Positions 2,612 to 5,600 of a DNA stretch of 6,220 bases are shown here, piece by piece (positions within the stretch are counted from its first letter, which is position 1; each line of letters opens with the position of its first letter). The notes under the pieces were generated by a model. That model saw only the letters and a program-made list of their open reading frames with translations, did no database searches and had not been told where the DNA came from. The stretch is from Methanomicrobiales archaeon (GTDB lineage: Archaea > Halobacteriota > Methanomicrobia > Methanomicrobiales > JACTUA01), in the NCBI GenBank assembly GCA_028678715.1, contig JAJRCY010000057.1, positions 1 to 6,220 of the forward strand. Reading direction: 5' to 3'. The translations under genes were made by a program, and so were the position numbers.

Positions 2612-5600
2612 TCACATGAAGTCCGCAAGGCCCATCTGCTTCTCCGGGGCGATGCCGAAGGTGGAATTGATGGCCATCTCCAGCACCGCGAGCCGCTGCC
2701 GGGTGTAGCCGGAGACCCCGTACTTTTCGCAGATCTTCCGAGAGATCTCCAGGTACTTCTTCACCGAGGCCTCGTGGATGGTGGGGAGGATCGATCCCCC
2801 GCACCGGGGGCACTTCCCTGCCAGGGGAACCCGCCGGTACTTGGAGTTGCACCGTGTGCACCGGACGGTCTGGTTGGAGAAAGCCCGCAGGTTGCCCATC
2901 AGGTCCGGGATGAAGTGGGTGGTGAGCACCCGCTCCGCCACGTCATCCGGGTCGACGGCCCGGATCTTGGCCGCAAGGGTGAGCATGGCCTCCAGCTTCT
3001 GCTGCATGGTCTCAAGAGCGGTGTACGTGGACTCCAGGGGCCCCGCCGAGATATCGGTGGTGTCATGGGTGAAGAGGAACCCCTCCAGCTGGGCGGGGGT
3101 GCCCAGCCGGTGCTCCACCCGGTCGATCTGCCCCTCCACCTCCCGGGGGTGGGTATTCCGGAGGGCGGCCAGGTAGAGATTCAGGGGGTAGCGGGGCCCC
3201 ACGTCCAGGTTGTGGCTCTCCTTGTCAATCTCCGAGGGGTCGATCTGGCTCGTGATCATGAGCGGTGCGTCCATGGTGCCGCCCCGGTTCTCGGGCAGGT
3301 AGGCGCGGGAGAAGTTGACCAGGCAGTCGAGGAGCAGCATCACGCAGTCCTCGTCCCCGTCGCACTGCCCGGTGAAGATCCCCTCTGCCTCCAGGGTGTG
3401 CTCCCCCTCCACCGTCAGGCAGAAGACGGTGGGATCGGGGGAGGGGACCAGGTCGCGCTTCGCCACCCGCTCGGAGATCACCGCCCCTCCCGCGCAGACC
3501 GGGAGGCAGTCCCCCTCCTTCACCTCCATGGCACGGATCCGGCGGATGTAGCCCAGGTCCATGACGAGCATCGTGTGATCGGGGGTGACGGCCAGGCTCC
3601 TCCCCCGGGCGGTCTCGAAACGGATCAGGGCAGCGGGGGATTTATGGACAGAGACCGCCGTCACCCGCCGGAGGTGCAGGGTGCCCTGGGTGTCCACCGC
3701 CCGGACGTAGGCCAGTTCTTTCGGCGACGAGTAGTAGGTTCCCAGCCGGTCAAGGCCGGGGGAGCTCACGTCAAAGTTCTCGAGAACGAACTGCCGGATG
3801 GGCTTTTTCACCCACCGGGTCCCATCGGAGACGTCGATGCGGGTGTCGCCATGGAAGCAGTTCCGGCGCTTGGCGGCATGGAAGAACGGGTGGGCGTAGC
3901 CCACGTTGGCCCGGCTGAACCCCACCAGCCGCGCGAGCACACCGGCGCTCGTGTGGGGGGCGAGGCCCACCAGCAGGTGACCCACCAGGTCCTGCCGTGC
4001 GTTCACCCGGTAGAAGGGCGGGAGCCCGTAGCACTTCACCAGCAGCTCATCCAGGAACGCCGCCACCTTCACCAGGAACTCTCCGCAGGCCTCGGAGACC
4101 AGGATGTCCTGCGGGCGGAGCTCCAGCACCTGACTCCCTTCCGCAAGTTCTCTCCCGTGGATATCAGTCACGTACCCCAGCTCCCGCAGCCGTTCCACGG
4201 GCACCCCCACCTCGTCGGGCCGGAAATGAGTCAGGGGCAGGTCAATCATGTCGTACCGGATCGTGCCGTCCTTGAAGACAAAGAGGCCGTGGAGCGCCCG
4301 GAGGATCCCCTTCTCCACCGGTTCCACGGCCTTCTCCCGGGAGATCATGCCCCGGACGCCCTTCACGAGCACGGGAGCAGTCTCCCGGATGCCCAGCCGG
4401 TCCATGGCGGCCTGGAACTCCTCCTTCAGGTTCACCGTCACCCGCTGGGAGGAGGCGGCAGGGGCATCGCAGCGGGGACAGCGGTCCCCCTCCGTTTCCC
4501 TCCCGCACCGCGTGCACCGGAAGACGGGGACGGTGGAGCCCCCGCAGATGCACCGGTTCCGGAACTCCTTCCTCCCGCAGACCGGGCATCTCCGCTCACC
4601 GGCATCCACCTCGATGATCCCCTCGTGCTCTGTGAAGCCCCCCTCCCGCTTCACCATCGTCTTCCCCGAGGCCGCCTCCTGGAAGGATCGCCGCGATCCG
4701 CCGGATTCCCCCAGCGGGTAGAGGGAGTGGGGGGGCGGGGACATCTCCCGGGGCCGGGACTTCCCCGGCCTCCCCATCCGGCCGCCGATCCGGGTCCCTC
4801 CCCGGGGCCGGAGCTTCATCCCCGAGAGGTGAGAGGCCAGCGCAAGGGCATCACCCTTCGGGGCCCCGTTCCACTGCGGCCGCTTTTCGAGGTGCGGGGA
4901 GAGGCCCAGGCAGGCCAGCAGCACCGGGGGGCGGGCGACGTGGATCCGGTCGTCCTCCACCCGGAACTCCACCAGCAGCTCCTCCAGGGTCCTTTCGGTT
5001 TCCCCGGTGCGGGGTACCACGAGTTCCCCGTTCCTCATGCTTCCCGCCGAGGCAATGGCATCGGCGAGGGCCTCCATCTCCACCGGTGTGAGGTCCTCCC
5101 AGTAATACGAGAAGTCCGGGTGCAGGTAACTTCCGGTCAGGGCCAGCTCCATGGCGTGGAGCTCGGTGGAAGGTGCCGGGATCCCGTGCTCCTGCTCCCA
5201 CCACTCCCGGCAGTAGCCGGCAGGCATCAGGGGGTGGTTGTTCTCCAGGAACTCACCGAAGGAGACCAGGATCTCACCCACGTCCAGGATGCGGTCCACC
5301 CGATCCCCCAGGCCCACGGCCTCTTCCAGGGAGTCGATCCGGTGCACCCCGCCCCCCTTCAACCGGACCGTGGGCCCCTCGATCGTGTCCACGGGCACTA
5401 TCCCCGCCGCTTTCCCGGGCCGTTCCAGTTTCATCTGGGTTCCCACCGCCAGGAACCGGCCCAGTACCTCCATGGTGGCCGGATTCAGGCCTGCCGCGGC
5501 AAACCCGCTGTTCCGCGACCGCCCGTACCGGAGCCGGAACCCCCCCTTCCGCATCGGGTGGGCAAAGACCGGCCGGCCCGCGATGATGTCCCGCAGGTAC

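Follow-up and report, generated by a model that had tools for sequence, protein, structure and literature searches.

A Gly-Gln-ending mini-intein in the active-site loop of DNA polymerase D, widespread in the Methanomicrobiales

The stretch of DNA analyzed here (hereafter the window) is one entire contig of 6220 bases (JAJRCY010000057.1) from the draft genome of a Methanomicrobiales archaeon (GCA_028678715.1; 212 contigs, 56.5% complete), and its minus strand carries most of the gene for DP2, the large subunit of DNA polymerase D (PolD). The gene is interrupted by an endonuclease-free mini-intein that lies at the known pol-IIa site and for which self-excision along the class 1 pathway is predicted. 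Very probably this intein has been kept since the polymerase needs the splicing, and not as a means of replication control. It belongs, as an ordinary example, to an already known family of class 1 mini-inteins found widely in the order, and the likeliest reading of its sequence is that of a vertically inherited, adequately splicing element rather than a demonstrated replication gate.

The intein (165 amino acids, aa) splits the active-site loop of DP2 at N/C-D-G-D (the slash marks the insertion point), one residue ahead of the first aspartate, and the residues after the insert read CDGDED. A catalytic role of the loop aspartates has been described (PMC4996933). Its coordinates (3365..3859), frame, flanks between the Asn and Cys of Asn-Cys-Asp-Gly-Asp and last residues had been given correctly in a first-pass annotation made from the sequence alone. 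That annotation also held that the polymerase depends on splicing, which follows from the insertion beside the catalytic aspartates: unspliced DP2, with the loop that holds two of them interrupted, would be inactive. The enclosing frame matches the Pfam families PolC_DP2_N, PolC_DP2_central and PolC_DP2_cat and the NCBIfam models PRK14714, PRK04023 and TIGR00354. The insert itself is an intein beyond chance, as it matches NCBIfam intein_Nterm (E 5e-11) and is covered by the intein region of PRK14714 (model positions 932-1100, E 1e-45); Pfam Intein_splicing matches it at E 1.7e-6, under the curated cut-off. Sequence matches in the PDB include the Pyrococcus PolII inteins 5bkh (8.5e-8), 2lcj (9.1e-8) and 7oec (3.7e-7) and, slightly better, the CDC21 intein 6rpp (3e-8), while the top row is a designed repeat protein of which no stretch passes alone. 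With 7OEC as the best structural match of the intein model, the insert is predicted to have the HINT fold and to resemble the Pyrococcus PolII mini-inteins. It is assigned to the pol-IIa allele by its insertion at N/CDGDED of DP2 and by its relatedness to other pol-IIa inteins (the PRK14714 intein region, 5bkh and 2lcj, and those of named methanogens). The earlier description as endonuclease-free is borne out, since no endonuclease and indeed no other Pfam family was found in the insert at E 0.001. An endonuclease remnant was likewise rejected, as all 101 distinct inteins read from the order are 164-166 aa long and no endonuclease family was found with Pfam.

All residues of the class 1 set are kept, namely Cys1, Thr92, His95, His154 and Cys+1, and the C-terminal residue, Gln165, is of a kind able to cyclize. 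Inteins of this class start with Cys or Ser, are followed by Cys, Ser or Thr at +1, and have Thr and His in block B and His in block F. The translation confirms the earlier observation that the intein lacks the penultimate His and terminal Asn and carries Gly164-Gln165 instead. In class 1 inteins the last residue is usually Asn, with Gln and Asp as accepted variants, and the penultimate residue differs from His in about 5% of functional inteins (PMC4031507). A penultimate His is not a defining requirement, and class 1 membership stands with Gly164. Class 3 inteins have no nucleophile at position 1 and carry a Trp-Cys-Thr motif; this class was rejected, since the intein starts with Cys1 and has Met97 at position 12 of block B, although Cys147 and Thr163 would suit the remaining two positions of the motif. 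In blocks F and G the histidine that is conserved is His154, present in 89/89 distinct inteins of the order and thus the likely helper of Gln cyclization. The residue counts come from a set of 130 rows, 115 of them distinct (89 from the order and 26 others, with all rows of 164-166 aa except L087 assigned to the order), in which Gly164 and Gln165 are each found in 89/89. A role of the block F His has been described (PMC8175363, PMC8229266). Judging from these residues and from relatives, Cys1, together with Thr92 and His95, would give the thioester, the N-extein would be passed to Cys+1, and His154, without a penultimate His, would help Gln165 to cyclize and so free the joined exteins. An S-to-N shift would then rebuild the Asn-Cys-Asp-Gly-Asp loop.

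The Gly-Gln ending, singled out in the first-pass annotation, is not peculiar to this intein: all 101 distinct inteins read from the order end in Gly-Gln and are 165 (93), 166 (7) or 164 aa (1) long. For these 101, the placement of the genome or its title decided membership of the order, and no limit on length was set; L025 and L057, with no order in their titles, were excluded and also end in Gly-Gln. Twenty additional stretches were read, with L170 and L181 lacking the N-junction and L189 being a ten-base placeholder. Of the 232 genomes searched from the order, 224 have a DP2 match and 189 match the intein protein query, the latter in 37/40 genera. The DNA pattern of Gly-Gln followed by Cys-Asp-Gly-Asp-Glu-Asp occurs in 184/232 genomes (119 of the 135 more complete ones), the empty-site pattern in 26/232 (12/135), both patterns in none of the 232 and neither in 22. 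The empty-site genomes comprise 23 of the 25 in genus g8 and three of the six in genus g21, and the site is exact where the sequence was read (RRN/CDGDED). With Methanocalculus as a neighbor, g8 is probably Methanocorpusculum and the g21 group probably Methanomicrobium. The 12 more complete intein-free genomes measure 1.6-2.0 Mb, and because intein-bearing genomes of 1.6-1.9 Mb occur too and there are only two losses, no conclusion can be drawn on whether genome size led to the losses. Searches of open-licence PMC papers showed no order-wide survey of this intein among the papers listed. Two genomes of the same genus share the window intein at 95 and 93% identity, which makes an assembly or binning artefact scarcely credible, even in a genome that is 56.5% complete and in 212 contigs.

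Some genomes of the survey deserve separate mention. G005, a draft genome of the family, has two different DP2 stretches (L007 and L012, one of them partial), both with a Gly-Gln intein; its contamination is 4%, and it may represent two organisms. In the intein-free g21 genomes G114 and G116 (L142, L143), which sit on a long branch, DP2 has an additional stretch near query residue 376, of about 95 residues in G114 and of low complexity where read (L142). The DP2 frame of Methanogenium cariaci (L085:4100-4680) shifts from one intein junction to the other, and CDGGDED stands at the C-junction; sequencing errors are likely; G103, in which the intein frame is broken, may be the same genome.

Descent looks mainly vertical. 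On a tree built from 73 DP2 exteins, in which 15 rows represent the 26 intein-free genomes, two state changes are needed, and well-supported branches force two; they are read as losses because both intein-free groups sit inside intein-bearing clades. Pairwise identities of inteins and exteins are correlated (r 0.80 over 77 rows, reached by 0 of 999 permutations), in a set drawn with a length filter (160-168 aa; 102 distinct). The intein is under purifying selection, with a median ratio of nonsynonymous to synonymous substitution (dN/dS) over 70 close pairs of 0.079, next to 0.073 for the flanking DP2. For the window against locus L002, the ratios are 0.089 in the intein and 0.159 in the flanking DP2. 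A decayed, non-splicing intein in a dead polymerase gene, which would agree with the non-standard ending and the Pfam score under the cut-off, was rejected on the low ratio of the intein (0.089) and is highly improbable, as the class 1 residues are kept, the frame is open and the gene is the sole DP2 found in its genome. Selection and correlation fit an intein that is inherited vertically and must always splice; by themselves they hold no pointer to a regulatory role.

Beyond the order, the endings among 88 inteins (those of the order included) are Gly-Gln in 77, Ala-Gln in six, Tyr-Asn in two and Lys-Gln, Lys-Asn and His-Gln in one each, counts that are biased in that most of the inteins from outside the order were supplied by a scan of named contigs that kept the top 80 out of at least 520. 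The 88 stem from 94 loci, five of which (L010, L011, L014, L085 and L088) have no readable C-junction and one (L062) no N-junction. Among 21 distinct rows with haloarchaeal titles, a count subject to the same bias, Gly-Gln ends 14, Ala-Gln five, and Lys-Gln and Lys-Asn one each. The haloarchaeal pol-IIa inteins share the site and mostly the terminal Gln with the window intein but are 175-206 aa long. An intein of Halobacterium salinarum is reportedly salt dependent, going by a title in reference lists.

Several points weigh against a vertically inherited, adequately splicing intein kept by need alone. The named-contig scan used a Gln-ending pattern (QCDGDED) beside the extein pattern and thus favors Gln-ending inteins; the survey by protein query is free of this bias. 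The 189 survey matches include G053 and G064, which have only weak matches in other proteins, and three further matches lack the Gly-Gln pattern (in G202 and G231 the sequence breaks off inside the intein, and G103 has the broken frame). The dN/dS pairs were picked by intein identity (0.85-1), some being one genome from two collections, and the ratios were obtained with the simple NG86 method. The intein protein also diverges faster than the flanking DP2, with a median identity of 0.60 against 0.71 and a lower value in 98.1% of 3403 pairs. Splicing in the window intein may likewise include a slow step, because a review reports slow splicing with the terminal Gln, and better splicing with Asn, for the PolII inteins of Pyrococcus abyssi and Methanoculleus marisnigri (PMC4031507), and the fixed Gln could be a sign that slowness is favored. 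In the strongest form of this argument, the fixed Gly-Gln end, kept in a mini-intein of unvarying length, would be a selected brake that meters active replicative polymerase across the order, a control that the two losing lineages would have lost; we regard this as distinctly unlikely.

With a conditional gate, as raised in the first-pass annotation, splicing of the Gly-Gln intein would be slow or would require reducing conditions, and active PolD and replication would thereby track redox or temperature. Besides the slow Gln splicing and the constancy of Gly-Gln in 101/101 inteins, it draws on published PolII inteins: splicing is temperature dependent in those of P. abyssi and P. horikoshii, for which the authors speculate on regulation (PMC8175363, PMC8229266), and an internal disulfide switch is reported for the M. 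marisnigri intein (PMC3922620), whose cysteines a review places in conserved splicing blocks (PMC6195587). The M. marisnigri (Mma) intein and that of the window share order, site, host protein and terminal Gln. Ten of the 12 inteins that are titled Methanoculleus or belong to g10 have cysteines only at positions 1, 147 and 163, while L111 carries an additional cysteine and the one at 163 is missing from L046. Nicastri (2013) reportedly placed the disulfide of the M. marisnigri intein between two internal cysteines. Presumably this intein is our L167 (165 aa, ending FCGQ). If the disulfide is indeed internal, the published pair is most likely Cys147-Cys163 because of this cysteine distribution. 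In L167 and in the majority of Methanoculleus-type rows, Cys163 directly precedes Gly-Gln, whereas the window has Thr163 and additional cysteines at 118 and 122. Cys147 is present, but because residue 163 is Thr, as in 81 of the 101 distinct inteins of the order, the window intein is predicted to lack the published switch; a disulfide between Cys1 and Cys+1, like that of P. abyssi, is possible. The gate is further opposed by the clean empty site on two tree branches, since the 26 intein-free genomes do without it, and by the fact that purifying selection is expected of any intein in a needed protein. For the window intein a gate is therefore unlikely, and the earlier suggestion stands in part: slow or conditional splicing is already in reviews for a methanogen relative (PMC4031507, PMC3922620), but the missing Cys163 and the intein-free genomes speak against a gate here.

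The same annotation had noted that a second, intein-free DP2 would remove the need for splicing. Such a copy was rejected, as the genome has one DP2 match and no genome of the order shows both junction patterns, although this check is partial in a genome that is 56.5% complete. The genome also contains a family B DNA polymerase gene (G000:C29:4390-5394), and PolD is thus not its sole polymerase. Elsewhere in the window, two neighboring genes on the plus strand (146-1410) match DUF7266 (below cut-off) and DUF7289, Pfam families of unknown function, and the minus strand carries an open frame of 98 aa with hydrophobic stretches and no Pfam match (1650-1946) and a tRNA-Leu with anticodon CAA detected by ARAGORN (2155-2243). 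No Rfam family reached its threshold anywhere in the window. The coordinates of the gene, the intein and its residues are given in Table 1.

Table 1. The DP2 gene and its intein in the window
Feature	Position	Strand	Basis
DP2 gene (PolD large subunit) with intein, N-terminus cut by contig end	2612..6220	-	1202-aa open frame and Pfam/NCBIfam matches
Final six N-extein residues, Ala-Ala-Lys-Arg-Arg-Asn	3860..3877	-	Sequence and alignment
Mini-intein without endonuclease, 165 aa (CFHGDTRI...EGIFTGQ)	3365..3859	-	Translation, family models, structure model
Cys1, block A, predicted step 1 nucleophile	3857..3859	-	89/89 distinct order inteins
Block B, Thr92-Pro-Asp-His95	3575..3586	-	His95 89/89, Thr92 88/89 distinct order inteins
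Cys147, block F position 4	3419..3421	-	88/89 distinct order inteins
His154, block F histidine, probable main helper of Gln cyclization	3398..3400	-	89/89 distinct order inteins
Gly164-Gln165, intein C-terminus	3365..3370	-	101/101 distinct order inteins; junction pattern in 184/232 order genomes
Cys+1, first C-extein residue	3362..3364	-	Sequence; invariant in 97-row alignment
Asp-Gly-Asp, catalytic aspartates of DP2 active-site loop	3353..3361	-	Sequence; role from PMC4996933

What is new here is the distribution across the order; the idea of slow or redox-dependent splicing has for the most part been published already, for a relative. The value of the system lies in its constant ending, its constant length and its two intein-free lineages, and therefore the general question of whether conserved mini-inteins are helpful to their hosts or merely hard to delete becomes testable within this order.

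At this site, mini-inteins are starred for Methanoculleus, Methanolinea, Methanoplanus and Methanospirillum in Table 3 of PMC4071816. The same table shows Methanoregula, Methanosphaerula and Methanofollis without the star, against a length of 164-166 aa for 101/101 inteins of the order in our data. The closest structurally described counterparts are the PolII inteins of P. abyssi and P. horikoshii (2LCJ, 5BKH, 7OEC), which share with the window intein the insertion site before C-D-G-D-E-D, the terminal Gln and the HINT fold and differ from it by a penultimate His and by Ser at block F position 4 (PMC8175363). These Pyrococcus inteins are 185 and 166 aa long, belong to hyperthermophiles and are 28-31% identical to the window intein in structural alignment.
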